A DNA stretch of 64,000 bases, taken from Vicinamibacterales bacterium. GTDB taxonomy: Bacteria > Acidobacteriota > Vicinamibacteria > Vicinamibacterales > Fen-181. Where the stretch lies: positions 1-64,000 of the forward strand of contig DASXVO010000029.1 in assembly GCA_036504215.1 (NCBI GenBank). The letters run 5' to 3'. Positions 15,105-35,390 of this stretch are shown piece after piece (within the stretch, counting starts at the first letter, position 1; each line of letters starts with the position of its first letter). Below the pieces are notes generated by a model, which was not told the origin of the DNA, did no database searches, and saw only the letters and a list, made by a program, of their open reading frames with translations. The position numbers and the translations under genes are program-made.

Positions 15105-15950
15105 TCACACGTCTGCGCGCGACAAGCGGCGTGCGGCAAGCCCGATCGGCACGACCGTCCAGAGCACCAGCGAGCAGGATAGGACGACCGCGGCGCCCGT
15201 CGCGCCTCCGGTGAAACGCAGCAGAGCAAGCGAGGCGGCGCCGAAGGCAGCGGTGCCTTCGATGGCGAGCAGGGTGCCCGTCCGGACCGCATCCACCGGG
15301 TTGATGAGGACCGCGGTGATCAGCAGGCGCGAGGCGTGGCCGGAGCGAAGCAGCGAGGCCACCCCGAGCGCCGCCAGGTCGAACAACACCACCGCCACGA
15401 ACCACACGACCAGCGCCACCGCGAGCGCGCGCGTCCGACGTCCCGTGCTGCCCGCCGCGATCAGCGCGGCGATCCCGAGAAACACGGCCGTCAGCACCGC
15501 CGCACCGCCTATCAGCGCGACAAACGAGGTCACGCCGTCGCTGCCCGCTCGAGAGAAGATGACCAGGCCCGACGCCCCGAAGCCCAGTGCCTGTGCGCCG
15601 ATCAGCGCTTCGAACAGTCCCAGCAGTTTACCGAGCAGGATCTTCCAGCGGGCTACGGGCTGCGAGAACAGCAATTCCGCCGCGCCGCGGTCCGGCGCCA
15701 GCGCCAGGACGCCGATCACGATCGCCGTGAGCGGCACCAGCAGCAAGACCAACTGGACGAGCGACACCGCGGTGCGCGCGAACTCCTGCACGCCGCTCCC
15801 GCCCGAGAGGATGTAGCCCGACAGCGCCACGCCGAGCGACAGGGCCGCGAACACCACGGCGAAGGTCTGCGTCCACCGCGAACGGACCGCCAGCGTCAGC
15901 TCCTGCCGGGCGCACAGCAACAAGGCGGAACGTGAGGTAGTGAGCGTCAT
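15105..15950 (-). CDS. nosY: NosY, ABC transporter permease for NosZ maturation
   Basis: 281 residues with about six hydrophobic segments. The first follows a short cytoplasmic N terminus (ARQELTLAVRSRWTQTFAVVFA), matching the NosY/ABC-2 permease opening. The conserved LLFSQPVARWKILLGKLLG loop is diagnostic of NosY. It pairs with the NosF ATPase and periplasmic NosD to deliver sulfur or copper for the CuZ cluster of nitrous oxide reductase. Its ATG overlaps the nosL stop by four bases. Confidence 0.93.
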   Translation of the reverse strand: MTLTTSRSALLLCARQELTLAVRSRWTQTFAVVFAALSLGVALSGYILSGGSGVQEFARTAVSLVQLVLLLVPLTAIVIGVLALAPDRGAAELLFSQPVARWKILLGKLLGLFEALIGAQALGFGASGLVIFSRAGSDGVTSFVALIGGAAVLTAVFLGIAALIAAGSTGRRTRALAVALVVWFVAVVLFDLAALGVASLLRSGHASRLLITAVLINPVDAVRTGTLLAIEGTAAFGAASLALLRFTGGATGAAVVLSCSLVLWTVVPIGLAARRLSRADV

Positions 15951-16420
15951 CGGGGGGCCTGTCCTCCTGGTGGTCCAGCCGGGCCGAAGATCTCCGGGAT
16001 CCCGACCGGGACGCCGCCCTTGGTGTCGGGATCGGCGAGCCGGGACGCTGCGTCGACGTAGGCGACGAGGTGCGAGCCCATTGGCGTCTCGAGCCGATCG
16101 ACCCGCGTGAAGGTCGCGCTCGACGCGAGCACCCACGCCCGGGTCCGGTGATCCGCTACGTAGGCAACGGCGCCTTGCGGAAGCCGCGTCTCCTGACGGA
16201 GAAACGCGGCCAGGCACCCGATGTCGTCGAAGAACATCGGCTCCTCTCCCGGCGCCACCACCTGCGCGGCGACGCGCGGGTCCGACACGGTCATCCGGCA
16301 GAATCGGCACGCGTCGTGGCGAGGGTCGAGCGTGGCCGGCCCTGGCGGTCCGCCGCCACACGAGGCGGCGAGAATCACGGTGGCGACGACGGCGACGACC
16401 CACAACCGCGGCGCGTTCAC
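15947..16420 (-). CDS. nosL: NosL, copper-chaperone lipoprotein
   Basis: 157 residues. A GTG start overlaps the nosF stop as GTGA. The N terminus has a lipoprotein signal with lipobox LAASC. The body carries the NosL copper site CRFCRM and the family segments EPMFFDDIGCLAAFL and HLVAYVDAASRLADPDTKGGVPV. NosL binds Cu(I) on the periplasmic face and hands it to the NosDFY complex and NosZ. Normal length; fourth from the end of the nos operon logic but placed between nosF and nosY. Confidence 0.93.
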   Translation of the reverse strand: MNAPRLWVVAVVATVILAASCGGGPPGPATLDPRHDACRFCRMTVSDPRVAAQVVAPGEEPMFFDDIGCLAAFLRQETRLPQGAVAYVADHRTRAWVLASSATFTRVDRLETPMGSHLVAYVDAASRLADPDTKGGVPVGIPEIFGPAGPPGGQAPR

Positions 16421-17316
16421 CGGTGCTCTCCCACGAGTTCCCGATACAGGAGGTCGAGCCGTCCCTCCTCGGTCGTAATCGCGCGGATCTCACCGCCGGC
16501 AGCCCGAATCCGGTCGAGGATCTCGGGACGACCAGACGCCGGCCCGTGGACCACGATCTCGTCGGACGACCAGGCCGCATCAGGCCCCAGGGCGGCCAGG
16601 AACACGGCCGGCTCTGGTCCACCGGGGGCGAGGCGTACGCGCATCACACCCCGGTCGCCAAGGCGCTCGTGCAACTCCGCGCGGGTCAGCGTGGCAACCA
16701 ACTGCCCTTCCACCAGCACGGCGAACCGATCGGCCAGGCGCTCGACGTCGCCCAGTTGGTGCGACGTGAACAGCACGGTCCCGTGGTCCTGCTTCCGGCG
16801 TTCCATCAGCGTGTAGAACGCGGACAGGCCCTCCGGGTCGAGCGCAGCTGTCGGCTCGTCAAGCAACATCACGGGCGCCTCGGCCAGCATGGCGACGGCC
16901 AGGCCGAGGCGTTGGACCATGCCGCCCGAATACGTGCCGACCGCCCGCCCGCTCGCGCCGTTGAGCGCCGCGAACCGCAGCACATCGCCGGTGCGACCGG
17001 GGCCGGCACCGCGCAGCTCGCGATAGAACTCGACGACCTCATAGCCGGTCAACGCTTCGGGGAACGAGACCTTCTGCGGCAGGTATGAGATGTCACGTCG
17101 TGCGTGGGGCTCTGACGCCGGACGGCCCGGCTCGCCCAGGAGCACCTGGCCGCGGCTCGGGCGGATCAGCCCGGCGGCAGCCTTGAGCGACGTGGTCTTC
17201 CCAGATCCGTTCGGCCCGAGCAGCGCAACGGCCTCGCCGCGGCGGACATCGAGCGACAGGTCGATCACGGCGCGATGCGCCCCGAAGGACTTCGTGAAGC
17301 TCCGGAACGCAATCAT
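16417..17316 (-). CDS. nosF: NosF, ABC transporter ATPase for NosZ maturation
   Basis: 299 residues, a single ABC nucleotide-binding domain: Walker A GPNGSGKTT, Q-loop in SYLPQKVSFPEALTG, signature YSGGMVQRLGLA, Walker B MLLDEPTAALD, and switch His in FTSHQL. It energises the NosY permease. The YLPQ.. QKV..PEALTG wording after the Q-loop is typical of NosF rather than of general ABC-2 exporters. The ATG at 17316 overlaps the nosD stop by four bases. Confidence 0.95.
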   Translation of the reverse strand: MIAFRSFTKSFGAHRAVIDLSLDVRRGEAVALLGPNGSGKTTSLKAAAGLIRPSRGQVLLGEPGRPASEPHARRDISYLPQKVSFPEALTGYEVVEFYRELRGAGPGRTGDVLRFAALNGASGRAVGTYSGGMVQRLGLAVAMLAEAPVMLLDEPTAALDPEGLSAFYTLMERRKQDHGTVLFTSHQLGDVERLADRFAVLVEGQLVATLTRAELHERLGDRGVMRVRLAPGGPEPAVFLAALGPDAAWSSDEIVVHGPASGRPEILDRIRAAGGEIRAITTEEGRLDLLYRELVGEHR

Positions 17317-18743
17317 GGCCGGGCGCCTTTCCTCCGCGCCACCCGCGCCCCCTTCGTGAGGACGACGCCACCCGCACCGGCCACGGCGACCGCGATCGCG
17401 ATTCCGCGCACATCGCCCGCGGACCGGTCCTGGCGCGCGGGGGGCACCGCCGGGAGCGACGGGGGGCGCACGAGCGGCGACCGGTCCTCGGGCGACACGG
17501 CCTCGAGCACCGGAAACGCGCGTTCAGCCAGCCCGAGCGCGGTCGCCGCAAAGCTCTGGGCGATGAGGTCTGCCGCAATCAGATTGCCCCGCAGGTGATC
17601 GAAGACGCTCGACAACCGAAATGGCCTGTCGCTACGGCCGTCGCCGTCGAGGTCCGGCTCGTCGTTGTCGGACCAGTAGTTGCCGTCGAATGTCGTGTCC
17701 GTCCGCTTTCCCACCAGCGACAGCGGTGTCATGTTGCCGACGAACGAGTTCCCCTCGAACCGCACGTCCGCGCACGATGCGAACAGCACGATCGCGATGT
17801 CGGATTGGGCGACGATGTTGCGGCGAAACACGTCGCGGCGCGAACCTTCGAGAAAGATCCCCCGGGCGTTGTCCGCGATCAGGTTGTCCTCCGCGATGAC
17901 ATCGTCGCACCCCTGGAAGAGCAGGCCAACCGACGCAAACCCGCGGTTGTGGAGGAAGCGATTGCGGCGGAAGACGATCCGCCGCGAGTACATGATCGCG
18001 GTGCCGGCGGCACCGTTCTCGAACACGTTGTCCTCGAACAGGTTGTCATCGGAGAACATGTAGTGGAGGCCGTAGCGGACGTCCCGAACCTGGTTCCCGC
18101 CGATATGGCCTTTCGAGGACGACTGCAGGTAGATCCCGTCGCGCGCCTCGACGATCACGTTCTGCTCGAGGCGAAACCCTTCCGTGTTCCACGCATGGAT
18201 TCCGGATCCCTTCTCGCCGGGATCCCTGCCCGGGATGCCGTTGATGCGGCAGCGGACGACCCGGGTGCCGTGCGCCTCGCGAAGATAGACTCCGAAGAGC
18301 GAGCGGCGCACGTAGCAATCTCGAATGGTAGCCCGCCGTCCGGCGACGTGGATCCCGGACGAGTCGCGGCCGAGGTCGCCCCCGTTCCGGCCATCCACGT
18401 CGAACCCGTCGATCACCACATCGTCGGCCCTCACGCGGATGACGCTGCCGACGCCGGACCCCACGAGCAGCGGGCGTCCGTGCCCAATGAGGGTGATCGG
18501 CCGATCGATCTCCAGATCGCCGGTGTAGGTTCCCGCGGCGACCTCCACCGTGGCGCCGGAGGCTGCGTCGTCGATCCGTCGCTGGAGTGGCGACACCTGT
18601 CCGGAGGCCGGGCGGGGCTCGAGCGTGCCCGGCGACGTGCCATGGTCCGCGATGCCCTGCGGTCCCACGGCCGAGACGGCCGCGAGAGCCAGCGCGAGGA
18701 TCACGCGCTCCCCATCCGCCGCGCGCGCCCAGCGCTTCGCCAC
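17313..18743 (-). CDS. nosD: NosD, periplasmic copper/sulfur-handling beta-helix protein
   Basis: Up to 476 residues. The GTG at 18743 gives a good signal peptide with basic n-region; a second GTG at 18704 overlaps the nosB stop as GTGA and is a real alternative. The body is a right-handed parallel beta-helix (CASH/NosD repeats: GIHVAGRRATIRDCYV, GIYLQSSSKGHIGGNQV, GLHYMFSDDNLFEDN, GIFLEGSRRDVFRRN), with FDGNYWSDND near its end. There is a hydrophobic C-terminal segment (about 440-462), so it may be membrane-anchored, which is seen in some NosD. It works with NosFY in CuZ assembly. Confidence 0.94.
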   Translation of the reverse strand: MAKRWARAADGERVILALALAAVSAVGPQGIADHGTSPGTLEPRPASGQVSPLQRRIDDAASGATVEVAAGTYTGDLEIDRPITLIGHGRPLLVGSGVGSVIRVRADDVVIDGFDVDGRNGGDLGRDSSGIHVAGRRATIRDCYVRRSLFGVYLREAHGTRVVRCRINGIPGRDPGEKGSGIHAWNTEGFRLEQNVIVEARDGIYLQSSSKGHIGGNQVRDVRYGLHYMFSDDNLFEDNVFENGAAGTAIMYSRRIVFRRNRFLHNRGFASVGLLFQGCDDVIAEDNLIADNARGIFLEGSRRDVFRRNIVAQSDIAIVLFASCADVRFEGNSFVGNMTPLSLVGKRTDTTFDGNYWSDNDEPDLDGDGRSDRPFRLSSVFDHLRGNLIAADLIAQSFAATALGLAERAFPVLEAVSPEDRSPLVRPPSLPAVPPARQDRSAGDVRGIAIAVAVAGAGGVVLTKGARVARRKGARP

Positions 18744-19345
18744 GCGAGGAACAACGCCAGCAGCAGGGCCGGGACCACCAGGCCCAGCGCGTACGACGCG
18801 GCCGCCGGGTACGAATACACCTCGAAATTCGCCAGCTGCTTGTAGCCGAACATCGGCGGCATGAACGCCGGGACCTTGACCGCCGCAGTCGGCGCCAGCG
18901 AGTGACCGTAGCTGTACATTTTGAATGCGAACGACCAGATGGCAAACCCGGCGAAGTAGAGATACAAGACGATCACGTCAACCAGCTGCGACATCGTGCC
19001 GTGAACCGCCGCACGCAGGAACAACAGACCGAGCGCGCCGACCACGAACGGCAGCCACTTGAACTCGGTGAAGTCGTCGGTGACCAGGTCCTTCATCCCG
19101 ATGTAGTGGTTGAGGACGTTGATCTCCTTCACGTCCTGGCCGCGGTTTCCCCCGTCCAGCTTGTAGCTGTAGATGTCCATTCGCAGGCCATCCGGGTACT
19201 GCGGGGCGAACATCGTCAGGTTCCACAGCGGAAAGATGTAGACCGCAACCAGCAGCACGGCTGCAAGGACGAGCAGCACGCGCGACCGCAGGTCCAGCGG
19301 CACGGCCATGAACCCATTCGCCCGTTCGATGAGCCTTTGCATCAT
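18701..19345 (-). CDS. nosB: NosB-type integral membrane protein of clade II nos clusters
   Basis: 214 residues from the ATG at 19345, which has GGAG just upstream; longer starts exist but enter the nosZ end region without a ribosome site. Five hydrophobic segments are seen (about 20-40, 92-110, 115-145, 185-207). A conserved periplasmic loop between helices 1 and 2 reads NLTMFAPQYPDGLRMDIYSY. A membrane protein of this size directly after nosZ is the hallmark of clade II (atypical) nos operons and is named NosB. Its biochemical role is unproven. It overlaps the nosD frame by about 43 bases. Confidence 0.82.
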   Translation of the reverse strand: MMQRLIERANGFMAVPLDLRSRVLLVLAAVLLVAVYIFPLWNLTMFAPQYPDGLRMDIYSYKLDGGNRGQDVKEINVLNHYIGMKDLVTDDFTEFKWLPFVVGALGLLFLRAAVHGTMSQLVDVIVLYLYFAGFAIWSFAFKMYSYGHSLAPTAAVKVPAFMPPMFGYKQLANFEVYSYPAAASYALGLVVPALLLALFLAWRSAGRARRMGSA

Positions 19346-19408
19346 CCGTCTCCACCACGACGACAGGGGCGCGGCGCGCCGCGCCCCCATCGCCGCGCGG
19401 CAGCGGGA

Positions 19409-21271
19409 TTACTTCTTCTTGACGATCAGGTAGCCCTGCATCTCCTGGTGGAGCGCCGAGCAGAAGTTCGTGCAGTAGTACGGGAACACGCCGGCCTTGT
19501 CGACCTTGAACGTCACGGTCTTGGTCTCGCCCGGGTCGACGACCACGTTGATGTTGTAGTCGAGCAACCCGAGGCCGTGCAGTTCGTCGGTCGTCTGCTC
19601 GATGTTGGTGAGCGCGATCGTGACGATGTCGCCCTCGTTCACCTCGATCGCGGACGGCGTGATGGTCGACCGCACGAGCACGGTCTTGACGATGACCTTG
19701 TTGCCCTGACGGGTCACCCCCGCGTCCTTCACATCCCAGACCGCGAGCGGATGCTTGTTCTCTTCCTTCGGGTAGACCTCGATCGGGTGCAACTTGTCGG
19801 CCTTCACCATCTGCGCGTAGTGCGGCTCGGGCTCGGTGAACGCATCGTAGAGAAGCTTCATCTTCTCCTCGGAGATGTCCACGAGCTGTGACGATTCCGG
19901 CTGCGACGGCCCGACCGAGAGGTGCCGCCCGTGCGAGAGCTTGTTGAGACCGACCAGGTACTTGCCGTCGGGCGAGACCGTGTCGCCCTCGGCGGCGGTC
20001 AGATGGCCGATCGAGTAGGACATCGGTATCTTGTCCACGACCTCCCAGGTCCCGAGCTTCCACTTTGCGATGGCGCTGTCGACAAACAGAGACGTGTAGG
20101 CCCAGCCGTCCGGCGCGAACTGCGTGTGGAGTGGCCCGAGACCGACCGTGACCTCCGCTTCCTTGATCGACTCGTACTTCAGTACAGGGATCCCGTCCTC
20201 ATCGCCGGTGAAGTCCTTGTTGCGAATCGCCGTCTGGATCTTCTCGAAATTGAACACGGTCGTGACACCCTGGAGCTTGCCCGAGCCCACGATCCACTTT
20301 CCGTCGGGCGCGACGTCCACCCCGTGCGGCGACTTTCCGCACGGCATCAGGTAGACGATGCCCGGCACCTTCTTCGGATCGAGGACCTTCACCCCGCCGA
20401 TCAGCTCGCCCTTGCCCTCGGCAATCGCCTTCTCGGCGGCCTTCCAGTCCACCGCCGCGATGTAGTCGCGATCGCGCTGCGACGCGGTGACCTCGAGCTT
20501 GCCCGTCGCCCGCTCGGCGTTGTAGCAGGTCCAGAACATCCACCCGTCCGACATCTTCTTGCCCGCGTCGCCGAGGTCGTAGTCGAACGGCGGCATCAAG
20601 ATTTCCCAGCCCATCGAGATCTGGCCCGTCTTCGGATCGATCTTCATCGCCGCCACGACGCCCTTGTACTCGGTGGCGTACTTGTCGATACCGACCACGG
20701 TGCCCTTCGGGATCGGGATCGAGAAGCGCGACGCCATCATCGAGTAATCCGTGTTGGGCGTCACGAACGCCGACCCATGGTTCCCCGACACGTTCGGCAC
20801 CGGGCCGAAGATCTGCTTGGTCTTGAAGTCCCGCAGATCGATGCGCGCCACGCGGCCGTTCATGTCGTTGACGAACAGCCAGCGACCGTCGTAGTCGCCG
20901 GCGGTCTCCGAGAGAGCCGGGTGGTGCACGTCACCCCAAGTCAGCCCGCCCAACATGGCCTTCGACTCGTCGTCGAACCCGTAGCCGGTCCCCGGGTAGG
21001 GCGTGAACACAGGGATCGTCGACAGGTGGCGCATGGACGGCACTCCGTACACGTAGACCTGCCCCGAATGGCCGCCGGAAGAGAACATGTAGTACTCATC
21101 AAGATCGCCGGGCGCCACGTAGGTCTTCTGCGCCGCCACCGCCATGTCAGATGCACCCGCCGCGGCCTTCTTTGCCTTTGGCGCGGTCGGCGCGCATTTG
21201 CCGGCCATGACGCCAAGCGCCAGGACGGCAACGAGCGTAAACAGGGTTCTCACGCGAGCCGTCAGCTTCAT
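19409..21271 (-). CDS. nosZ: Nitrous oxide reductase, clade II (Sec-exported)
   Basis: 620 residues. It reduces N2O to N2 in the periplasm. The leader (MKLTARVRTLFTLVAVLALGVMAG) has no twin-arginine motif, so export is Sec-dependent, as in clade II enzymes. Residues about 50-500 form the seven-blade propeller that holds CuZ, with ligand-type histidines in GDVHHPALS (H116, H117), SGNHGSAF, CGKSPHGVDV, GLGPLHTQF and YSIGHLT. The C-terminal cupredoxin holds CuA: C600-x3-C604-x3-H608-x2-M611 in YCTNFCSALHQEM. All key residues are present, so it should be active. It is followed by nosB and preceded by the cytochrome genes of the same operon. Confidence 0.97.
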   Translation of the reverse strand: MKLTARVRTLFTLVAVLALGVMAGKCAPTAPKAKKAAAGASDMAVAAQKTYVAPGDLDEYYMFSSGGHSGQVYVYGVPSMRHLSTIPVFTPYPGTGYGFDDESKAMLGGLTWGDVHHPALSETAGDYDGRWLFVNDMNGRVARIDLRDFKTKQIFGPVPNVSGNHGSAFVTPNTDYSMMASRFSIPIPKGTVVGIDKYATEYKGVVAAMKIDPKTGQISMGWEILMPPFDYDLGDAGKKMSDGWMFWTCYNAERATGKLEVTASQRDRDYIAAVDWKAAEKAIAEGKGELIGGVKVLDPKKVPGIVYLMPCGKSPHGVDVAPDGKWIVGSGKLQGVTTVFNFEKIQTAIRNKDFTGDEDGIPVLKYESIKEAEVTVGLGPLHTQFAPDGWAYTSLFVDSAIAKWKLGTWEVVDKIPMSYSIGHLTAAEGDTVSPDGKYLVGLNKLSHGRHLSVGPSQPESSQLVDISEEKMKLLYDAFTEPEPHYAQMVKADKLHPIEVYPKEENKHPLAVWDVKDAGVTRQGNKVIVKTVLVRSTITPSAIEVNEGDIVTIALTNIEQTTDELHGLGLLDYNINVVVDPGETKTVTFKVDKAGVFPYYCTNFCSALHQEMQGYLIVKKK

Positions 21272-21394: not shown

Positions 21395-22630
21395 TCAACG
21401 GCCTGCGGGCGGCTTCGGCGCCCTCTCGGTCTCGGCCTTCTGCCGCTGGTATTCGGCAAACGCCTCCCGCAGCTTCTGGATTGCCACCTGCTTCTCGGCC
21501 GGCGACAGGATGATCTGTCTCGAGAGAACGACTGACATCGTCCCGGTGGGGTTCATGAAGAAGTCATCCACCGTGCGACCGAACCGGCGCTGCGTGTCCT
21601 CGACGGCGACGGACAGGTCGGGGCCGATCTGCGCCGGGCTCTTCACCCCGAGCGAGGAGATGTTGTGGCACACGAAGCATCCGGTCTTCACGAACCACGC
21701 GCCGGGACCGGTCTTCATCCGCTCCTCCTCGACCTTCTCGTCGGGGGTCTGCGGGTCGGTGCGCGGGACGCCGGCGACGAATTCGGCCGGCACCGGAGTC
21801 TTCCGCCACGACTGGACCAGGATGGCGAGCGACTGCGCGTCCTTGGTCCCGAAGTTGAAGTTCGGCATCACCGTGTCGGCCACCAGCGCCTTCGGGTCCT
21901 TCAGGTGGGCGACATGCCACGCGAACGCCGTCTTCTGACCGGACAGCCGGCTGTAGTCGTACTGTTCAGGCGCCTTGTCGCCAACGAACGTGAGATCCGG
22001 CCCGATCGTGCCGCCCCGCCCGTTGATCGTGTGGCATGCCCGGCACCCCTTCTCCCTGACCAACCGCTTGCCGAGGTTGATCGCGTCGGCCCCCTTGGTC
22101 TCACGGTCGTACCGATGACAGACGTTGCAGTTCATCTGCATCAGCGCGTGCTTGTTGTCCGCGATCGAATAGGCCTCGCCAAGGTCCTTTCCGAGCATCG
22201 GCTCCTCCCAGAACGCCACAGGACCGTGCGCCGGCTCGACGTCGACCGCCCACCCCTGTCCGCCGTGGCACGACGTGCACCCGAAGCGCTCGGGCGGGTG
22301 CGCTCGCAACAGGTCCGCGGGATGTGTGCGGTGGGGTTCGTCCGCCGTCTCGAAGCCCTTCCACGCTGTGGCCTGGTGGCAGGTGACGCATCGATCGGCG
22401 TGTCCCAGCGCCGGCACCCAGATCTGCTGGAGACCCGACGGCACCACGCGCGCCTTCTCCTGGCCGAACTTGTCGGCGACCATCTGGTGGAATTCGCGCT
22501 GGTAATAGCGCCACTCGTGCTCGCGGTCGTTCCGGGTGAACAGCACCGTTGACACCACCAGCAGCAGGCCGACGACGGCCAGCACGGGCCGATCCCGGCG
22601 CGGGTAGGGCGAGTTGGTTCGCTGTTCCAT
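21395..22630 (-). CDS. Five-haem cytochrome c of the nos operon
   Basis: 411 residues with an uncleaved N-terminal membrane anchor (about 15-36) and five CxxCH haem sites: CVTCH, CTSCH, CNVCH, CRACH and CFVCH. Spacing shows two c-type units near the N terminus and single-haem domains at the C-terminal half, the last two with GPDLTFVG and GPDLSVAV loops typical of class I cytochromes, and MPNFNF and NPTGTMS as possible distal Met ligands. It lies between cytochrome b and nosZ with one base after the cytochrome b stop, so it most likely carries electrons from the b/Rieske complex to NosZ CuA. No exact family name recognised. Confidence 0.88.
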   Translation of the reverse strand: MEQRTNSPYPRRDRPVLAVVGLLLVVSTVLFTRNDREHEWRYYQREFHQMVADKFGQEKARVVPSGLQQIWVPALGHADRCVTCHQATAWKGFETADEPHRTHPADLLRAHPPERFGCTSCHGGQGWAVDVEPAHGPVAFWEEPMLGKDLGEAYSIADNKHALMQMNCNVCHRYDRETKGADAINLGKRLVREKGCRACHTINGRGGTIGPDLTFVGDKAPEQYDYSRLSGQKTAFAWHVAHLKDPKALVADTVMPNFNFGTKDAQSLAILVQSWRKTPVPAEFVAGVPRTDPQTPDEKVEEERMKTGPGAWFVKTGCFVCHNISSLGVKSPAQIGPDLSVAVEDTQRRFGRTVDDFFMNPTGTMSVVLSRQIILSPAEKQVAIQKLREAFAEYQRQKAETERAPKPPAGR

Positions 22631-22631
22631 G

Positions 22632-23978
22632 TCAGAGCCTCGTCGGGATCTCGGGCCACGTCTCCCACGGCCAGTACAGGTGCCAGTACGGGCCGCGCAT
22701 GAACGTCCCGACCAGTGTGAGGATGAGAACGACCGCGACGACACCCAGGAACACGAGGTTCTGCGCCCGTCGCGTCCGCGGGAACCACGAGCCGGCCGCG
22801 GCGCCGGGGCTCCGGTCGATCCACGGCCAGGCCGTGAGCAGCCCGACCAGCACGCCCGGCAACAGGACGCCGCCAAGGAACGCACCGTTGATCGTGAACG
22901 TCCCCAACCGGATCGTCGTGTCCGTCACGATCTCCTGCAGCCAGAGGAAGTACCACGGCGCCTTGGCCGGATTCGGGGTGACGAGCGCATTGGCCGCTTC
23001 CTCGAGCGGCGACCGCATCAGCGCCGCCATGATGCTGAGCACGGCGAACGTGCCGAGCACGACGATCGCCGTGCGTCGAGTGAGGTCGGGCACCGCGTTC
23101 ACGGTCGCATCGGCGGCCTCGAGCGTCGTCGTGCGGACGGCCGGCGAGGTCCCGCGGGCCACGCCGAGGAGCGCGTAGGTCTTCGTTGTCGAAGCCGGGC
23201 TCGCCACCGGCGCGGGCAGGACCGACGCCCGGTCCGCTCGTGCCAGCCCGCCGTCCTTGCGCACCCGCCACATGTGATACGCGAAGAGCGCGCCGAGCGC
23301 CGCCGGCAGGACGATGACGTGCAGCGCGTAGAACCGGATGAGCGTCGGCTGGTCGATTCCACGCCCTCCGATCAGCAACTCGCGTATCGAGGGCCCGATC
23401 CACGGGATCGACGACGCGATGTTCGTGCCCACGGTCACCGCCCAGAACGCCAACTGGTCCCACGGCAGGAGGTAGCCGGTAAACGACAGGAACAGCGTGA
23501 GCAGGAGCATGACCACCCCGATCACCCAGTTCCATTCCCGGTGCTGGCCCTGCCCGACGCCGTTCTTGTACGCCCCGGTCAGAAACACCCTGACGAGGTG
23601 CAGGAACACCGCCGCGACCATCAGGTGCGCCGCGAACCGGTGAACCGCGCGGATCCACGATCCGAACGTGATCGCGTACTCGATGTCCTTCACCGACCCG
23701 TAGGCGCGCTCGACCGACGGCACATACAGGAACAGCAGCGGTCCGCCCGAGAGCACCAGCAGCAGCAACAGCGCCGCCGACACGGTGCCCAGCCAGAATG
23801 AGTAGGACCAGTCGAGCGATGACCTCTCGACCTTGGCCGGGAACCAGTGCAGCAGGAAATTCGAGACGATGGCGTCGCCGGACTGGCGGTCCGATCGGGG
23901 CCGCAGGCTCCAGAGACGTCGTGCGTGCACGCCGGGCGCTTCGGCCCGGGCGCGCGGCGTCGTGGCTGGCAGGCTCAT
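22632..23978 (-). CDS. Cytochrome b (bc/b6f type) of the nos operon
   Basis: 448 residues from the ATG at 23978, six bases after GGAGGA; an in-frame GTG at 23984 is too close to that site. About nine hydrophobic segments are seen. The first four carry the haem-b histidine pairs (AVHRFAAHLM and FYALHVIVLPAALGALFAYHMW), as in cytochrome b/b6; LSFTGYLLPWDQLAFW is the conserved Qo-side loop. The C-terminal half (from PDLTRRTA, with NPAKAPWYFLWLQE) corresponds to subunit IV, so this is a one-piece cytochrome b. With the Rieske gene it should form a quinol-oxidising complex dedicated to N2O reduction. Confidence 0.92.
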   Translation of the reverse strand: MSLPATTPRARAEAPGVHARRLWSLRPRSDRQSGDAIVSNFLLHWFPAKVERSSLDWSYSFWLGTVSAALLLLLVLSGGPLLFLYVPSVERAYGSVKDIEYAITFGSWIRAVHRFAAHLMVAAVFLHLVRVFLTGAYKNGVGQGQHREWNWVIGVVMLLLTLFLSFTGYLLPWDQLAFWAVTVGTNIASSIPWIGPSIRELLIGGRGIDQPTLIRFYALHVIVLPAALGALFAYHMWRVRKDGGLARADRASVLPAPVASPASTTKTYALLGVARGTSPAVRTTTLEAADATVNAVPDLTRRTAIVVLGTFAVLSIMAALMRSPLEEAANALVTPNPAKAPWYFLWLQEIVTDTTIRLGTFTINGAFLGGVLLPGVLVGLLTAWPWIDRSPGAAAGSWFPRTRRAQNLVFLGVVAVVLILTLVGTFMRGPYWHLYWPWETWPEIPTRL

Positions 23979-23990
23979 GCGCACTCCTCC

Positions 23991-24497
23991 CTACGCGGTC
24001 GTGAGCCGGAAGTCGTGGCCCACTTCGTTGGCCAGGTCCACGACGAGTTGACCGTCATCCGACGCGAGCGACAGGTGGTACCACGCGAGTGGCCGCGGCG
24101 CGGGCCCTGACACGTTCCCCCCATCGCCGGTGTACTTCGACCCGTGGCACGGACACAGGAAACGGTGCGTGAGGCGGAGCGCCTTGCCGTCAACCGTGCG
24201 GGCCTCCGGATTCGAGAGCGCCTCGGCGCGGACCGTGCAGCCCAGGTGGGTGCACACCGCCGAAATCGCGTGGAACACCGTGCCCTCGCGGAAGATGAAC
24301 AGCCGCTGGTCAGGAAGGAACTTGAGCCCGTCGGGGAACTCGGCGGGCAGGCCCACCTTCACCGTCGTGGGCGCGTCATAGGACACGTTGGGCACCAGCG
24401 AGCGGAGCGAGGCGGCGCCTTGGTAGCCGAGGGCCGCGATGCCCGCGCCGGTGCCGAGGGTCAGGAGAAAGTCACGCCTGTTCTGCGGTTCGCCCAT
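23991..24497 (-). CDS. Rieske [2Fe-2S] protein of the nos operon
   Basis: 168 residues. The ATG at 24497 lies 26 bases inside the end of the upstream flavoprotein gene, so the two are coupled. A twin-arginine motif (NRRDFLLTLG) precedes the hydrophobic anchor. The cluster motifs are CTHLGC and CPCHGS, followed by the Pro-loop region GPAPRPLAWYHL. The mature domain sits on the periplasmic side and accepts electrons from quinol via the adjacent cytochrome b. It is smaller than a mitochondrial-type Rieske protein and resembles the b6f-like bacterial group. Confidence 0.93.
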   Translation of the reverse strand: MGEPQNRRDFLLTLGTGAGIAALGYQGAASLRSLVPNVSYDAPTTVKVGLPAEFPDGLKFLPDQRLFIFREGTVFHAISAVCTHLGCTVRAEALSNPEARTVDGKALRLTHRFLCPCHGSKYTGDGGNVSGPAPRPLAWYHLSLASDDGQLVVDLANEVGHDFRLTTA

Positions 24498-26448
24498 GGA
24501 TGCCTCGCTCGTTCGTATCGTCGAACCGTTCGGTAATGGCAAACTGCTCCATCGTCATCGCGTCGGTCGGGCAGCGTGTGGCGCACAGCCCGCAGCGGAT
24601 GCACCGCTCGTCGTCCTTCACCATGGCCGACAGCGGCAGACCGCTGTCCCCGGCCCGCTCGATGAGCGTCTGGCGAGTGTCGGCACCGAGGCCGAGTTCC
24701 TCGAACGGCACGATGGCCAGACAGTACTCTGGACACACGTCGACGCACCGGTTGCACAGAACGCACTTCTCGGGGTCGTAGATGGTTTGGACGTGGCAGA
24801 CGAGGCAGCGGGCGGCCTGCCGGCGCGCGTCCGATTCGGAATAGCCGGATTCGACCTCCGCGATCCCCGTGCGACGTCCAAGATCCAACGTCGGCGGAGC
24901 CGCGCGATCGAGTTCCTCGAAGCCGGCAATCATCCGGTAACGGGGCGTCGGGATCTTGGCGATGTCGAGACGGACGTCGAGCGGTGCGTCGTGCGGCGCG
25001 AGGAACTGGTGGATCGACCGTGCGGCCCGCTTGCCGTTCGCCACGGCGTCGATGAGATTGCGCGGCCCGAACGCGACGTCGCCGCCGGCGTACACCCCGC
25101 GAGCAGTGGTCGCCAGCGTGACCGGATCGATGCGAATCGTTCCGCCGGGAGCCAGCTCGACGCCATCCTCCGGCCTCAGGAACGCCAGGTCGGCGCGCTG
25201 ACCAACCGCCAGGACGCATGCATCGGCCTCGACCGTGACGACATCGCCGTCGTCGTACGCAGGTGCGAATCGGCCAGTCGCGTCGAAGACCGACGTGACG
25301 GCGCGAAGCTCGATGGCCTGCAGGCGGCCCTGGCCGACGAAACGGTTCGGTCCGCGCCTGGGGACGAACCGAACGCCCTCGTTCTTCGCCTCCTCGAATT
25401 CCTCGTGTCCCTGGGTCGTTCGAAGGACGGGCATCTCGTCGAAACTCTCGAGCGAGACGATGGTGACCTCACGGGCCCCGCCGCGCAGCGCCGCCCGCGC
25501 CGAATCGAGCGCCTCCTTGGCGTGCGAGGCCGATTCCGCCGCGATCTCTCCGAGAGCGTCGATGCCGGCGTCGGCACCGAGCCGCAAGGCCGTTCGGGCC
25601 GCATCAAAGGCCACGAACCCCCCGCCGATCACCACAACTCGCCGGCCAAGATCCGCACGGTAGCCCCGGTTGACGTTGAGCAGGTAGTCGACCGCCTTGA
25701 CGACGCCGTCGAGCTCGATGCCCGTCACCTGGATGTCGCGGCCCTTGGAGACACCGACCGACAGGAAGATCGCCTCGAAGCCCAGCTCCCTGAGAGCGGC
25801 GAGGCCGAAGTCGGGCGACAGGGTGACGCCCGTTTTCAGCGTCACGCCGAGCGCCAGGATCTTGTCGATCTCCGCCCGGATCAATGAGCGAGGGAGGCGG
25901 TATTCCGGGATGCCAAACCGCATCATCCCGCCGGGCTCGTCGGCGGACTCGAACACCGTCACCGCGTGGCCGAGCAGCGCGAGGTCGTGCGCGGCCGCCA
26001 GGCCTGCCGGCCCGGCGCCCACGACCGCGACACGAGAGCGTGAAGCCGGCGCGTCGGGCGTCCGCACCGCACTGGACGGCGTCACGGGAAGGTGGCCGGC
26101 GTATCGATTGCCCTCGTCGATGAGCGTCGTGAGCAGGCGGTCCTGAGTGCCGGGTTGCGTCGATTCGACGCCGTACTGCTCGGTGACGAACCGCTTGAGG
26201 GCGCGGATGGAGATTGGGGCGTCAATCGCGGCCCGGCGGCATGCGTCCTCGCAAGGCGCAGCGCAGACCCGACCGCAGACGGACGCAAATGGATTGGGAG
26301 CCCGGGCGACGAGGTACGCATCCTCGTCCCGCCCGTCGGCAATCAGTTGCACATACCGACCCGCGTCGGTGGCGACCGGACAACCCGACTGGCACTTGAC
26401 CTGGGCCTTCCAGTGGTCCAGATCGGGGAGGCGGACGGGCAAAGCCAT
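24472..26448 (-). CDS. GltD-like FAD/NAD(P) oxidoreductase with multiple Fe-S motifs
   Basis: 658 residues from the ATG at 26448 with GAGGGA upstream; cytoplasmic. Domain order: an N-terminal Fer4_20-like Fe-S domain with CQSGCPV and CGRVCAAPCEDAC; FAD Rossmann fold (VAVVGAGPAGLAAAHDLALLG, then GIPEYRLPR); NAD(P) fold (VVVIGGGFVAFDAARTALRLGAD); a second FAD motif (GVYAGGDVAFG); and a C-terminal ferredoxin with CVLCNRCVDVCP and CIRCGLCATRCP. This is the glutamate-synthase small subunit/NfnB superfamily. As first gene of the nos operon it probably moves electrons between NAD(P)H or ferredoxin and the quinone pool or Rieske complex, but this is inference. It lacks any glutamate synthase partner. 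Confidence 0.85.
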   Translation of the reverse strand: MALPVRLPDLDHWKAQVKCQSGCPVATDAGRYVQLIADGRDEDAYLVARAPNPFASVCGRVCAAPCEDACRRAAIDAPISIRALKRFVTEQYGVESTQPGTQDRLLTTLIDEGNRYAGHLPVTPSSAVRTPDAPASRSRVAVVGAGPAGLAAAHDLALLGHAVTVFESADEPGGMMRFGIPEYRLPRSLIRAEIDKILALGVTLKTGVTLSPDFGLAALRELGFEAIFLSVGVSKGRDIQVTGIELDGVVKAVDYLLNVNRGYRADLGRRVVVIGGGFVAFDAARTALRLGADAGIDALGEIAAESASHAKEALDSARAALRGGAREVTIVSLESFDEMPVLRTTQGHEEFEEAKNEGVRFVPRRGPNRFVGQGRLQAIELRAVTSVFDATGRFAPAYDDGDVVTVEADACVLAVGQRADLAFLRPEDGVELAPGGTIRIDPVTLATTARGVYAGGDVAFGPRNLIDAVANGKRAARSIHQFLAPHDAPLDVRLDIAKIPTPRYRMIAGFEELDRAAPPTLDLGRRTGIAEVESGYSESDARRQAARCLVCHVQTIYDPEKCVLCNRCVDVCPEYCLAIVPFEELGLGADTRQTLIERAGDSGLPLSAMVKDDERCIRCGLCATRCPTDAMTMEQFAITERFDDTNERGIHGRTAEQA

Positions 26449-29346: not shown

Positions 29347-30639
29347 CTACGTGGCTGCGCCAGCTGACGCCTCCTTGGGCGCCCAGGACACGTCCATGCC
29401 CGCCCGCTTGTAGAGCGAGAGCAGAGCGGCCTTGTCTACGGTTCGGGTATAGGCCTCCTCGGGGGAGACGACCTGTCTCTTCACCAAGTCGAACAGGGAC
29501 TCGTTCATCATGCACATGCCGAATTTCTTGCCGGCCTGCATGATGGACGGGATCTGAAACGTCTTGGCCTCGCGAATCAGGTTGCACACCGGAGGCGTGG
29601 CGATCAGCACCTCGAGCGCGGCCACGCGGCCCCCGCCAATCTTCCGGCACAGGACCTGGCTCACGACCGCGCGCAGGCTCTCCGCCAGCATGATCCGGAT
29701 CTGCTGCTGCCGATCCGCCGGGAACTGGTTGATGACCCGGTCGACCGTGGACGGCGCCGACGAGGTGTGGAGCGTGCCGAACACGAGGTGCCCTGTCTCG
29801 GCGGTCTCGATGGCGATCGCCACGGTTTCGAGGTCGCGCATCTCGCCCACCAGGACGATGTCCGGGTCTTCGCGCAGCGCGGCGCGCAGCGCGTGCTTGA
29901 ACGAGTCGGTGTGGCCGCCCACCTCCCGCTGGTTCACGAGGCACTTCTTGTTCTCGTGGACGAACTCGAGCGGGTCTTCGATCGTGATGATGTGGTCGCT
30001 TCGGTTGCGGTTGACGTAGTCGATCAGGGCGCAGAGCGTCGTGGACTTCCCCGACCCCGTCGGGCCCGTGATGAGGACGAGGCCTTTCGGGAGGTGACAA
30101 ACCTCGAGGAGTTCTCGCGGGAGAGCCATCTCCTCGGCCGTCATGATCTTGCTCGGGATCACGCGGAAGACGCCACCCGGACCCTTCCGATCGACGAACA
30201 GGTTGCAGCGAAATCGCGCGAGCCCCGCAATTTCGTAGGCGAAATCGGTATCGTGGCGCTCGGCGTACTCCTGGCGGTACCGCGGCGGGGCAATCGGCAG
30301 CAGCAGCCGCTCCGTATCGGCGGCCGTCAGCGCCGCGCGCCCGGCAATGGCCTCGATCTGGCCATCGTGCCGCAACAGGGGCGGGGATCCAGCGGACACG
30401 TGCAGGTCGGACGCCTTCCGTGCCACCATCAACCGGAACAACTCCTCGATCTCGGGCGTCCCGGGCGTCACCGGAGCGCGGGCGTCGGGCTCGGCGGGCC
30501 GCCCTTCGGGCACCGTCGCTCTACCGTCCAATGCCATCGAGGCCTGGCAGTGCGGGCAGCGGATCGAGAACGAACCGGCCGGCACTCTCGCGTCGTCGAT
30601 GAGCAAGCGTCGCGCACACTGTGGGCAGGTCACTTCCAC
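29347..30639 (-). CDS. PilT-like type IV pilus ATPase with N-terminal zinc ribbon
   Basis: 430 residues from the GTG at 30639, chosen because GGGAG lies seven bases upstream and the product then begins directly with the zinc ribbon; an ATG at 30663 also exists. Residues 1-38 form an MJ0042-type zinc finger (CPQCARRL and CPHCQASM). After a Pro-rich linker comes a PilT/VirB11-type ATPase: ASDLHVSAGSPP, Walker A GPTGSGKST, Asp box IITIEDPLEFVH, Walker B DPDIVLVGEMRDLET, His box GHLVFGTLHTSSA. PilT retracts type IV pili. The zinc ribbon is not part of standard PilT. The gene is followed 140 bases later by the OmpA-type gene and coupled to the small gene upstream. Confidence 0.92.
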   Translation of the reverse strand: MEVTCPQCARRLLIDDARVPAGSFSIRCPHCQASMALDGRATVPEGRPAEPDARAPVTPGTPEIEELFRLMVARKASDLHVSAGSPPLLRHDGQIEAIAGRAALTAADTERLLLPIAPPRYRQEYAERHDTDFAYEIAGLARFRCNLFVDRKGPGGVFRVIPSKIMTAEEMALPRELLEVCHLPKGLVLITGPTGSGKSTTLCALIDYVNRNRSDHIITIEDPLEFVHENKKCLVNQREVGGHTDSFKHALRAALREDPDIVLVGEMRDLETVAIAIETAETGHLVFGTLHTSSAPSTVDRVINQFPADRQQQIRIMLAESLRAVVSQVLCRKIGGGRVAALEVLIATPPVCNLIREAKTFQIPSIMQAGKKFGMCMMNESLFDLVKRQVVSPEEAYTRTVDKAALLSLYKRAGMDVSWAPKEASAGAAT

Positions 30640-30640
30640 G

Positions 30641-31111
30641 CTATGTCTCCCGTATCTCGGCAACCCTGGAAATGCGGTCCTTCTGGATGAGGTGCTGCCT
30701 GTGGCCAGACTGCACGAGCAGAAACGCCTCGGGCCGATTCAGATGGTCGACCAGCCGGCGCTGGTTCTCCGGCATGTCGATGACAATCTCGCCCTCGAAA
30801 CGCTCGCTTCCCGCTTCGACGAGAACGTGGCGGACGAGGGCCGCCGAATCCCACGACCGCTCGTCCTCCCGTGAGGGTGACGCCACGGACAGCGACAGCA
30901 CCTGGCGCTTGTTCACCAGGACGGTCGACCCTCCCTCACCTGACCGGAACGGGAAGAACGATGACGGGCCGTTGATCCACTCCTGGGGGAGCATCGGCCC
31001 GGTCTGCAGCGCGGACAGCACGGGCAGGTAGCAGGTGCCGTGAAGCACGGTGCCATCCAGACACTGGATATCTGTTTCTACCTGAACCGTTGGGACCCTG
31101 AGATCATCCAT
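30641..31111 (-). CDS. PilT-linked protein of unknown function
   Basis: About 156 residues from the ATG at 31111; a longer start near 31260 is possible. The stop lies one base before the GTG of the PilT-like ATPase gene, so the two form a coupled pair. The sequence is beta-rich, with VQVETDIQCLDGTVLHGTCYLP, WINGPSSFFPFRSGEGGSTVLVNKRQVLSLSV and a C-terminal repeat-like half (ENQRRLVDHLNRPEAFLLVQ), reminiscent of a split-barrel regulator such as PilZ-like or DUF6812 proteins. It could sense a ligand and regulate the ATPase. The 284 bases upstream, to the chemoreceptor gene, hold nothing clear. Confidence 0.6.
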   Translation of the reverse strand: MDDLRVPTVQVETDIQCLDGTVLHGTCYLPVLSALQTGPMLPQEWINGPSSFFPFRSGEGGSTVLVNKRQVLSLSVASPSREDERSWDSAALVRHVLVEAGSERFEGEIVIDMPENQRRLVDHLNRPEAFLLVQSGHRQHLIQKDRISRVAEIRET

Positions 31112-31395: not shown

Positions 31396-34300
31396 CTATA
31401 GGTTGAACCGGCCCACCAACTGCTGGAGCTGGCCGGCCATGGTCGCGAGCGACCGTGCCGCCCCCTGCGTGTCGGCCGCTCCCCTGGTCGTGCCGTCGGC
31501 TGCAGTGGCCACGCCGGCGATGTTGCGCGCGATCTCCGCGGACCCGCGCGCCGCCTCGGTGATGTTCCGCCCGATCTCGTTGGTCGTCGCCGTTTGCTCC
31601 TCCACCGCCGAGGCGATGGTGTTCGACACGTCGTCGATTTGGCTGATGAGGGCGCTGATTTGCCGGATGGCTTCCACCGCTCCGCTGGTGTCCCCCTGGA
31701 TGGCGGCGATCTTCCCGCTGATGTCCTCGGTCGCCTTCGCCGTTTCCTTGGCCAGTTCCTTCACTTCGTTGGCCACCACGGCAAATCCCTTGCCGGCATC
31801 CCCGGCCCGGGCCGCCTCGATGGTCGCATTGAGCGCCAGGAGGTTGGTCTGTTCGGCAATCGACGTGATGACCTTGATGACGTTGCCAATCTCGGTCGAG
31901 GAATCGCCCAGCTTCTGGACTGTCTGGTTGGTGGTGTCAGCCACCCCAACGGCGTGCTTGGCCATCCGGGCCGCCTCGTTCGCGCTCTTGGCGATCTCGC
32001 GCACCGACGCGAGCATCTCCTCGGCGCTCGTGGCGACGACGGTCAGGTTACGCGAGATCTGCTCGGAAGCGGCCGAGACGACGCCCACCTGGGTCGAGGT
32101 CTCCTCGGCGTTGCCCGTCATCTGCTGGCTGATGGCTCCCAGTTCTTCCGCCGAGCCGCCCAGTGCCTGGGCGTTCTGCGTGATCTGCTCGATGTTCTCC
32201 CTGAGGCCTGTCACCATCGTGTTGATGGAGGTCTTCATGGCGGCATGGTCGCCAACGTAGGCCCCGGCCACCTGGACCCGCAGATCCTGCTTGGCCACCT
32301 TCTCGAGGACGGCCGCGGCTTCATTCAGTGGCTTGATGATCGCATCGAGCGTGTCGTTGACCCCCTGGATGATCGCGCGAAAGTCCCCCTGGTGCTTCGC
32401 CGCGTCAGCGCGCATCGCGAGTCGCCCTTCGATGGCCGCTTGCGACAAGGCTGTGGCATCCTGGACGAGGGCGCGCACGCCACGGACGGTGCCGTCGAGG
32501 CCGGCGTTGACCTTCGCAAACAACTCGGCTACCTGCCGGGTGTCGGCGTCGGACGAGCCGACGGTGGTATCTACCGCGAGATTGCCCAGCGAGAGACGCT
32601 CGAGGTTGACGACCAGCTTGTTCACCTCTTGGCCCTGGAAGTCGGCCTGCTTCTTGGCGACCCGCGCCGCGGTCTTGACGGCGGTAAGGTCGGTGGCCAC
32701 CTCCATCGCGCCGACGACCCGCCCCGTCTCGTCCTTGATCGGGACGCCGGAGTAGGCGATGTCGAGCGCCTTGCCCTGAGGATGCACATCTGTCTCGCCA
32801 CTGACCATCTGGCCGCGCGCCATGCACTGCCCCGTGGCACAGCGATCGGTTCCGCAGTCTGCCGCGCGGAGGTGATCGCGGCACTGCGTGCCCAGCAGCG
32901 CCTGCAGCGGCCGGCCGGTGAGGTCGGAGATCACTCGGTTGGCGTACTGGATGCGGAACTCGCGGTCGATGATGAAGGCCGGTGTCGGCATTACGTCGAT
33001 CAGCGCGACCACCGCGTCGAGCGTGTGGTTGAGACCGTCGATGACCTTCCGGAAGTCCCCCTGGTGTTTCGCTGCGTCGGCGCGAACCGTCAGCCGGCCG
33101 GTGGCGGCCGTCCGCGCCAGTCCGTCGGCATCGGCAACCATCAGGTTGACCGCCTGGATGCAGGTGTTGAGGTTGTTCTTGATCTCGTTGAAGTCGCCCC
33201 GGTATTCGTCGGTGATTCGCGGCGGAATGTCCCCCTTGCTGATCCGATCGACGTATTCGGCCGCCATGTTCAGCGGTCCGATGACCGCGTCCAGCGTGTT
33301 GTTGACCCCCTGGATGGTCTTCCGGAAATCGCCCTGGTGGCGCGACGCATCCGCGCGCGCGTCCAGCTTGCCCTCCACGGCTGAGGTCGCCAGCGACGTC
33401 GCGTCGGCGACTAGTCGCTCGATGGCGTCGATGCAGGTATTGAGGTTGTTCTTCAACTCGTTGAAGTCGCCGCGGTACTCCTCGGTGACCCGCGACGGTA
33501 TGTTGCCCTTGCTGATCCGATCGACGTATTCGGCCGCCATGTTGAGCGGCCCGATGACCGCGTCCAGCGTGTCGTTGAGGCCGCGCAGGATCTTCCGATA
33601 GACGCCCGCCGACTTCTCCGCGTCCACGCGCACCGCGAGCCGGCCTTCCCTGGTGCCGGTAATCGCCACGCCGATCTGGTCCACCAGGATCCCGAGGGCG
33701 CCGATGCAGGTATTGAGGTTGTTCTTCAGCTCGTTGAAATCGCCCTGGTACGTGTCGGTGATAGCGGGCGGGATGTCGCCCTTGCTGATGCGGTCCACAT
33801 ATTCCGCCGCCATGTTCAGCGGGCCGATGATGGCATCGAGCGTGTCGTTGACGCCCTGGATGATCTCGCGATAGCCCCCTTCGAACTTGGCGACGTCGCC
33901 GCGGGTGGCCAGCTTGCCATCGACCGCCGAGCGCGACAACATGGCCGCTTCGCCGACCAGGCCACGCAGGGCGGTGACGGTCGCCTTCAGTGCCGGCGCG
34001 ATCTCATCCTCGGCATCCTTCGCGTGGACCTCGACAGAGAGATCGCCGCGAGCGATCTTCTGGAGCGCCGCGACGACGTCGCCCTGGAGGGCGTCGGCGA
34101 ACTGGTCCATGGCGCTCGTCAGCTGTCCGATCTCGTCCTTACGGCCGAGGCGCAACCGCCGGCCGAGGTGCCCCTTGGTCAGCTCCCGCATCATCTCGAC
34201 GCCGCGGGCGAGCGGCCGCGTGATGCTGGAACTGATGACGAGGCCGAGACCGACGGCGAGCAGAAAGCCGACGAACCCGGCGGTCGCCATCTGGCGTGCG

Positions 34301-34866
34301 GACGACCTGGCCGTCTCGTTGCTCGCGGTTTCGAGGGCTTCAGCACTCGCGACGTTGAAACTCACGAGTGTGCCGATGGCCGCTCCTACCGCCTTTCGGG
34401 AATTCGCCGTCTTGCCGCCGTCGCGTGTCGCGTCGATCACGGCTTTCGATCGACCCGCCTTCGTCTCCGAGAAACTCCACTCCACCTGTGCCAGGTAGTC
34501 CCGAAGCGCGGCGTCGAACACGGCCAACGCCGCCTTCTTCTTCTCGTCCTTCGTCAAGAGGGCGTACTTCGCAGCTTCGCCCTTGATGGTCGCGATGGAT
34601 TTGGCCGCGTTCTGCACAGTCAACTCGTACTCGTCGGGGAGGAGCACGACCTTGTAGACGTCTCCCCGAAGCCGGTAGAGTTCGGCGTTGACGATCGCCA
34701 GCTGTGTCGTCGGAACGAACTCGTTCGCATAGAGCGAACTCTGGTTCGCCTGCATGTCACCGATGTTTCGATAACCAAGAACCGCGACCACGCCGAGCAT
34801 CAGCGCGACCGCGAGGAATCCTCCGACGAGCTTGACGCCCGTCTTCAGATTGTTGAGTGATGCCAT
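31396..34866 (-). CDS. Large methyl-accepting chemotaxis protein with repeated modules and PAS
   Basis: 1156 residues from the ATG at 34866 (GGGAGAAGG upstream). Order: membrane segment (about 8-30), periplasmic four-helix-bundle sensor (about 35-185), second membrane segment (about 190-210), HAMP, a linker, then about four to five copies of a 92-residue module whose core is [16 protein letters not shown] followed by [14 protein letters not shown]. Inside the array sits a PAS domain ([17 protein letters not shown]) with a Cys-rich insert ([20 protein letters not shown]). The C-terminal signalling domain has [19 protein letters not shown] and [12 protein letters not shown] at the hairpin tip. 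No CheR-tethering pentapeptide is seen. There are no che genes nearby. Confidence 0.93.
33130..33958 (-). repeat. Three tandem 276-base repeats inside the chemoreceptor gene
   Basis: Near-identical segments recur exactly 276 bases apart: the plus-strand words around 33241, 33517 and 33793 differ at only a few positions. Each unit encodes a 92-residue HAMP-like module. The exact period points to in-frame duplication. A diverged further copy at 32300-32500 lies after the PAS domain. Confidence 0.85.
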
Positions 34867-35390
34867 CGACCTTCTCCCGCCGTATCTTTGCGGCACGTCA
34901 TGATGAGGTAATGAATGAGGCCTTGCTTCGAAGTCGAGTAACCAAGAATCGGACCGGGCGCTCTCGTAGGCACCGCGGCGGGGCCGTTCAGGCGAACGCC
35001 CGAATCCGGCCAGTAATTGTGTGGTTGATTGAAGGAAATGACGCGGCTGACAAGCTCAGCCGTGTATAAGTGTCGACATCCCGATGATGACCACCTTCCG
35101 ACCGTCAGCCCTTTCGCCACCCTGCCGCTCACGCACGCATCCGTATTCACACGATCCTTCTACTGTTGAGAATCGGCACAACCATCGTGTTCTGTAATTA
35201 GGCACGGACGAGCTTTGGGGACCAAGCGCGCTGGCCAGAGTGAGTTGCGGTAGCACGCCCGCGCGCCCCCCATGGCACGCCGCCGCGCCACTCCCCTTCT
35301 GCAAATCGCCAACCTGGACTATTCTCTTCGCCAACTTGCTGCGTCGGAGAATGAGTCTTCGTCGCTCGATCCAGCCCCGTGGCGTGCCGC
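34867..35390. other. Divergent intergenic region with one stem-loop
   Basis: This gap lies between the chemoreceptor and the DUF5916 gene, which point away from each other, so it should hold both promoters. The clearest element is a perfect seven-pair inverted repeat CGGCTGA-CAAGC-TCAGCCG at 35044-35062. I do not see a convincing sigma-70 or sigma-54 promoter, and no open frame in it looks like a real protein. Confidence 0.4.

Follow-up and report, generated by a model that had tools for sequence, protein, structure and literature searches.

A predicted NAD(H)-type Fe-S flavoprotein encoded with a Rieske/cytochrome b module in one lineage of clade II nos operons

Gene content of the locus

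The window (the whole 64,000-nucleotide stretch of Vicinamibacterales DNA that was analysed) carries a nos operon whose genes all lie on the minus strand, in the order flavoprotein, Rieske protein, cytochrome b, pentaheme cytochrome c, NosZ, NosB-position protein, NosD, NosF, NosL and NosY. Features were assigned as follows, with the basis of each assignment in parentheses where one applies.

24472..26448, minus strand: GltD/NfnB-like Fe-S flavoprotein, predicted NAD(H)-type, with a two-cluster ferredoxin C-terminus, first gene of the operon (Pfam domains, conserved motifs, AF2 model)
24475..24807, minus strand: flavoprotein residues 548-658, with C548/C551 (RCLVC) and eight ferredoxin cysteines, C562-C626 (conserved columns)
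25447..25455, minus strand: flavoprotein codons 332-334, S-L-E where the NADP(H) type has Y-R-R (alignment tally; motif meaning from PMC7596348)
23991..24497, minus strand: Rieske [2Fe-2S] protein, 168 aa, CTHLGC...CPCHGSKY, high-potential type (best PDB matches 9rk3 and 9rk4)
22632..23984 (start codon approximate), minus strand: cytochrome b, b6-like N-half fused to a subunit-IV-like C-half, with the N-terminal His in LLHWFP and an APWY Qo motif
21395..22636, minus strand: membrane-anchored c-type cytochrome with five CXXCH
19409..21271, minus strand: nosZ, Sec-type (clade II) nitrous oxide reductase (TIGR04246, 907 bits vs a cut-off of 625)
18701..19390, minus strand: conserved membrane protein in the nosB position, directly after nosZ (position)
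17313..18743, minus strand: nosD (PF05048)
16417..17316, minus strand: nosF, ABC ATPase (PF00005)
15947..16420, minus strand: nosL (PF05573)
15105..15947, minus strand: nosY, ABC-2 permease (PF12679)

The operon was classed as clade II (Sec-type), with NosZ above the family cut-off and NosD, NosF, NosY and NosL encoded alongside. The NosB-position protein matched no Pfam or NCBIfam model, yet its place immediately behind NosZ is conserved in the complete loci that were read. No FNR-type box was found before the nos operon, and the single match in the window is no more than expected by chance. Elsewhere in the window, also on the minus strand, lie genes for a chemotaxis receptor of 1166 aa, in which one HAMP domain, four HAMP_2 stretches and a PAS domain were recognised (31396-34896), and for an ATPase of the T2SSE type (PilT-like) that has a zinc ribbon at its N-terminus (29347-30663).

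Flavoprotein domains and nicotinamide specificity

The flavoprotein gene runs on the minus strand from an ATG at 26448-26446 to a TGA at 24474-24472 (658 aa), and its end overlaps the start of the Rieske gene (ATG at 24497-24495) by 26 bases. A preliminary description of the locus had these coordinates, the 658 residues and the overlap right, leaving the strand (minus) unstated. Its layout of Fe-S, FAD, NAD(P) and C-terminal ferredoxin domains was borne out by Pfam (Fer4_20, residues 17-91; Pyr_redox_2, 139-472; Fer4/Fer4_7, 561-631), and the operon holds no gene for a glutamate synthase large subunit, in line with the partnerless protein it described. Assignment as GltD of glutamate synthase was rejected on the lack of GltB in the operon, the extra ferredoxin domain and scores below the cut-offs of the NCBIfam GltD models. 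An AF2 model built from 58 alignment rows (pLDDT 88.3) gave NfnABC of Caldicellulosiruptor as its best Foldseek match (9bov, E 6e-43), with further matches to other Nfn/Stn enzymes (NfnI, E 9e-36), GltD and dihydropyrimidine dehydrogenase; the GltD/NfnB likeness first noticed in the sequence holds by fold.

A chance reading frame is excluded, since the nucleotide-binding and cysteine motifs are intact across 155 members. Fifteen cysteines are invariant in these members, truncated ends aside, and C58 is present in 152/155; the 16 conserved cysteines would suffice to bind four [4Fe-4S] clusters. His552 is characteristic of the nos clade, occurring in 100/100 nos members vs 3/55 others.

The triplet at the NAD(P) motif is S-L-E in nos members and mostly C-L-E or S-L-E in the other members. 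Glu334 is found in 155/155 members, at the position that the last Arg of Y-R-R takes in NADP(H) enzymes. For DsrL it was shown kinetically that Y-R-R goes with exclusive use of NADP(H), and that with other triplets NAD(H) is preferred or required (PMC7596348). Because the invariant Glu334 replaces the last Arg of Y-R-R, the flavoprotein is predicted with good confidence to use NAD(H) rather than NADP(H). The NAD(P)H link to the quinone/Rieske branch envisaged in the preliminary description is very likely as far as a nicotinamide is concerned, with NAD(H) the probable cofactor in place of NADP(H).

Linkage to nos genes across genomes

An alignment of ten nos-linked relatives was searched against 84,980 genomes, giving 428 relatives, of which the best 80 were kept. 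The search patterns came from nos-linked members and the best 80 of 428 are therefore enriched for nos linkage; a NosZ-first survey and a survey of the family beyond nos were independent of these patterns. Among the best 80 of 428, every contig reaching at least 6 kb past the flavoprotein gene carried NosZ (56/56), and all 56 informative loci had the order flavoprotein-Rieske-cytochrome b-pentaheme cytochrome c-NosZ, as in the window. Linkage to nos genes, the check named in the preliminary description, was thus found in 56/56 informative loci from several phyla. Rieske and cytochrome b genes lay alongside the flavoprotein gene in 75 of these 80; in the other five, the contig ended (four) or an unrelated reading frame came next (one, L148). 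Hosts of the nos-linked module were Acidobacteriota, Anaeromyxobacter sp. PSR-1, A. soli, A. terrae, other Myxococcota, Ignavibacteria, other Bacteroidota, Kryptonia and KSB1, together with one Calditrichota contig that stops in the cytochrome b gene. Two Ignavibacteria/Bacteroidota nos operons carry an extra secreted-looking gene between those for the flavoprotein and the Rieske protein (L158:11885-12628 and L160:11844-12632).

In the NosZ-first survey, NosZ was found in 27/247 Acidobacteriota genomes. Where it was at least 64% identical to that of the window, the module was present wherever the contig permits a check (one contig, L189, 81%, ends too early); it was not found near Acidobacteriota NosZ of 40-63% identity, several of whose contigs are short upstream. 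NosZ was found in 38/193 Myxococcota genomes, and the module accompanied 10/10 of those at least 79% identical; seven of about 49% identity were inspected and all were without it. Among the Sec-type NosZ lineages inspected, one has the flavoprotein-Rieske-cytochrome b module and the others do not. The nos-linked flavoproteins form one clade in the tree (SH-aLRT 100, quick method). Pairwise distances of NosZ, flavoprotein, cytochrome b and Rieske protein correlate at 0.89-0.95 (flavoprotein vs cytochrome b, r=0.95), which could also be explained by the common descent of the genomes alone.

Flavoprotein family beyond nos

Close flavoprotein homologues numbered at least 62 in 54/247 Acidobacteriota genomes, and 62 were placed. 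Eleven of the 62 are nos-linked. Another 39 are not, and 37 of these directly precede Rieske and cytochrome b genes without NosZ, mostly with a five- to eight-heme cytochrome c; the remaining two are cut off or have the Rieske gene only. The last 12 have no Rieske/cytochrome b genes downstream, and all eight of those extended have Rieske-cytochrome b-cytochrome c genes upstream. A clade seemingly without Rieske/cytochrome b was rejected on this ground, the genes sitting upstream in cbb3 operons. At the one locus tested against Pfam and NCBIfam, ccoN and ccoO lie between the cytochrome c and flavoprotein genes, and ccoG comes next. A Rieske-cytochrome b-cytochrome c-ccoN-ccoO operon with a sister-clade flavoprotein gene between ccoO and ccoG (L068:1495-7285 with L235:7933-11509, G158:C7) places the module beside a cbb3-type oxidase.

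The genome of the window encodes a second flavoprotein copy (49% identity) in an operon of its own with Rieske, cytochrome b and eight-heme cytochrome c genes (L009:9138-15602, G000:C19). That operon follows genes for an outer-membrane-like protein and a carboxypeptidase-regulatory-domain protein. The only strong cytochrome b genes of this genome are the two flavoprotein-linked ones, a third match being weak. From the paralogues, which share the same Rieske/cytochrome b/cytochrome c set in other operons, including cbb3 operons, the partner of the flavoprotein appears to be the Rieske/cytochrome b module and not NosZ as such. The proposed tie to nos, Rieske and cytochrome b genes is strict in the nos clade, but the family is not nos-specific, having paralogous clades elsewhere, one of which lies with cbb3 genes.

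Rieske protein and cytochrome b

Compared with 177,635 PDB sequences, the Rieske protein of the window was closest to 9rk3 (Kustd1480, E 4e-19) and 9rk4 (Kuste4569, E 1e-18). CPCHGS is kept in 86/86 nos members and is followed two residues later by Tyr in 63; the Ser (all members) and Tyr (most members) are residues that raise the potential.

Ahead of the first helix, an N-terminal His within [N/S]xx[L/F]H was present in all 134 flavoprotein-linked cytochromes b with a letter there, and absent from 29 legible canonical cytochromes b of the phylum (30 fetched, one with an illegible N-terminus). By this residue the flavoprotein-linked cytochromes b are a family of their own. In the nos clade, cytochrome b and subunit IV are fused (the split form occurs in other flavoprotein clades) and the heme cN Cys of b6 (Cys35 position) is replaced by W/Y. 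The N-terminal His could not be matched by spacing to the proposed ligand of the extra heme of Kuenenia, with 190-202 residues from the His to the RK motif here vs 204 implied for Kuenenia, and is at most a candidate for that ligand.

Proposed mechanism and alternatives

Starting from the observed operon, domains, cofactor motifs, strict co-occurrence and single clade, we infer a physical complex, in which the flavoprotein is very probably a subunit of the Rieske/cytochrome b complex. Menaquinol would be oxidised by cytochrome b and the Rieske protein. The first electron would pass from the Rieske cluster through the c-hemes and NosZ to N2O, and the second from the b-hemes through four [4Fe-4S] clusters to the FAD of the flavoprotein, where NAD+ would be reduced. 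The N2O/N2 potential is about +1.36 V, and strongly exergonic N2O reduction would pay for the NADH made from menaquinol. Taken whole, this reading (the flavoprotein as NAD(H) subunit on the cytoplasmic side, a complex with the Rieske protein, cytochrome b and pentaheme cytochrome c that feeds NosZ, and NAD+ reduction by quinol bifurcation) has close to an even chance. Still more tentative is its extension to a dedicated bifurcating complex throughout one clade II lineage, including cultured Anaeromyxobacter, in which N2O reduction would drive NAD+ reduction by menaquinol.

If the flavoprotein is a subunit, net electron flow towards NAD+ seems the somewhat more probable direction. The argument is energetic: complex I, with NuoH found in 12/12 genomes tested, is a better outlet for NADH, the Rieske protein is of the high-potential type and N2O is a strong sink, so NAD+ reduction is slightly favoured. 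Against it counts the slight need for reverse electron flow in heterotrophs that possess complex I. A role of the flavoprotein as stand-in for a missing complex I was rejected given NuoH in these 12 genomes, and the bypass of the usual dehydrogenases suggested in the preliminary description has no such gap to fill. The same complex might instead run forward, with electrons passing from NADH through FAD and the Fe-S clusters to the b-hemes and a cytoplasm-near quinone site; it would then act as NADH:quinone and quinol:cytochrome c oxidoreductase in one and supply NosZ independently of complex I. An NAD(H)-type motif would suit a respiratory NADH oxidase, the sister clade lies beside cbb3 oxidase genes, where NADH oxidation by O2 would be ordinary, and a quinone site of the normal kind might be favoured now that the heme cN cysteine is gone; such a complex would, however, waste the span used by complex I, an objection raised for Kuenenia too (PMC12954380), and we regard the forward direction as a serious but less probable reading.

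It is unlikely that the flavoprotein works outside the Rieske/cytochrome b complex, co-expressed with it as a separate soluble NfnB-/DsrL-like enzyme or as a low-potential donor activating NosZ in a NosR-like role. Its architecture and length are those of DsrL (PMC7596348), and clade I nos clusters likewise carry an Fe-S flavoprotein, NosR (PMC11409646), but the operon has neither NfnA nor dsrAB, the other Sec-type NosZ inspected manage without the flavoprotein, and NosZ-specific activation would leave unexplained a family whose paralogues are tied to Rieske/cytochrome b modules without NosZ. The same paralogues led us to reject a nos-specific maturation factor as the main reading. Pfam found in the flavoprotein neither of the NosR features, an FMN-binding domain and a transmembrane polyferredoxin. 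That a general GltD-like gene landed beside nos genes by chance is hardly credible: GltD-like stretches are common (14 matches in the window's genome), but the order kept in every informative locus across several phyla and the single clade with support of 100 already refute it.

Significance

As far as is known, the greenhouse gas N2O is removed biologically by NosZ-type enzymes, and the route by which electrons get to those of clade II is for the most part a matter of inference. For Acidobacteriota, Anaeromyxobacter and Ignavibacteria, a conserved, predicted NAD(H)-linked subunit in the nos operon alters what is expected of the energetics of N2O respiration. The proposed NADH-forming Rieske/cytochrome b mechanism also becomes open to experiment in a cultured, non-anammox system where the acceptor, N2O, is defined. 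If true, N2O-driven NAD+ reduction by menaquinol would be an energy-coupling mode that we found nowhere described for N2O respiration, and the bifurcating Rieske/cytochrome b complex would be a module paired with cbb3 oxidases too. The kind of complex is known from anammox (PMC12954380); its nos-dedicated form would be a new variant.

Comparison with known systems

DsrL has the same architecture and length, four [4Fe-4S] clusters and, in DsrL-1, an NAD(H)-type triplet as here (PMC7596348), but its partner is DsrAB and not Rieske/cytochrome b; no dsr genes are present in the window's nos operon. The flavin-bifurcating transhydrogenases NfnB/NfnL and NfnABC/StnABC share the fold. NfnB differs in having an NfnA partner and Y-R-R, where this operon has no NfnA and the flavoprotein has S-L-E and a C-terminal ferredoxin that NfnB lacks. 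Given the missing NfnA and the NAD(H)-type motif, an NfnB-like bifurcator, as the preliminary description suggested, is not indicated; any bifurcation would be at the quinol site.

The clade II nos system of Wolinella reportedly comprises NosG, C1, C2, H, NosB and a Rieske/cytochrome bc complex, as Hein et al. are said to have set out in 2017. Sec-type NosZ, a NosB-position protein and electrons passing by way of a Rieske/cytochrome bc complex are common to both systems. Unlike that of Wolinella, the present operon contains a dedicated Rieske/cytochrome b module and the flavoprotein, and no nosG/H was seen in it. In the literature searched, neither a nos-dedicated variant, nor this gene in nos clusters, nor biochemistry of a nos-linked member was found; Sanford 2012 and Hein 2017 lay outside the search and an earlier mention is possible. 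A figure in PMC11102522 shows the nos operons of A. dehalogenans; the flavoprotein gene goes unmentioned in the part of that paper devoted to nos genes.

The closest described systems are the anammox Rieske/cytochrome b complexes with NAD(P) oxidoreductase, Kuste4569-4574 and Kustd1480-1485 of Kuenenia stuttgartiensis (PMC12954380, citing Kartal et al. 2013). They offer a close precedent, though not a nos-dedicated one, for a protein that the preliminary description took to have no described role in N2O respiration. In both cases a Rieske protein, b6-like cytochrome b, multiheme cytochrome c and Nfn-fold oxidoreductase with four Fe-S clusters are encoded together, and NfnABC is the nearest structure for both oxidoreductases, the authors reporting NfnABC of Caldicellulosiruptor as structural homologue of the Kuenenia flavoprotein and having used it as a guide for their model (PMC12954380); the two flavoproteins are likened here by description, not by sequence. 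The Kuenenia Rieske proteins are the nearest PDB relatives and have Ser (with Tyr or Phe) at the potential-tuning positions. The partner in Kuenenia is a HAO-like or unknown enzyme and here NosZ, and this operon has a five-heme cytochrome c and a predicted NAD(H) specificity. In the Kuenenia complexes cytochrome b has four helices and subunit IV is a protein of its own; the published models keep heme cN and propose also an extra heme b between the cytochrome b monomers (PMC12954380). With W/Y in place of the heme cN Cys in nos-clade cytochrome b, the inner electron path would differ from those models, and the fused cytochrome b and missing heme cN Cys make the window's operon a variant of the anammox type rather than a plain member.
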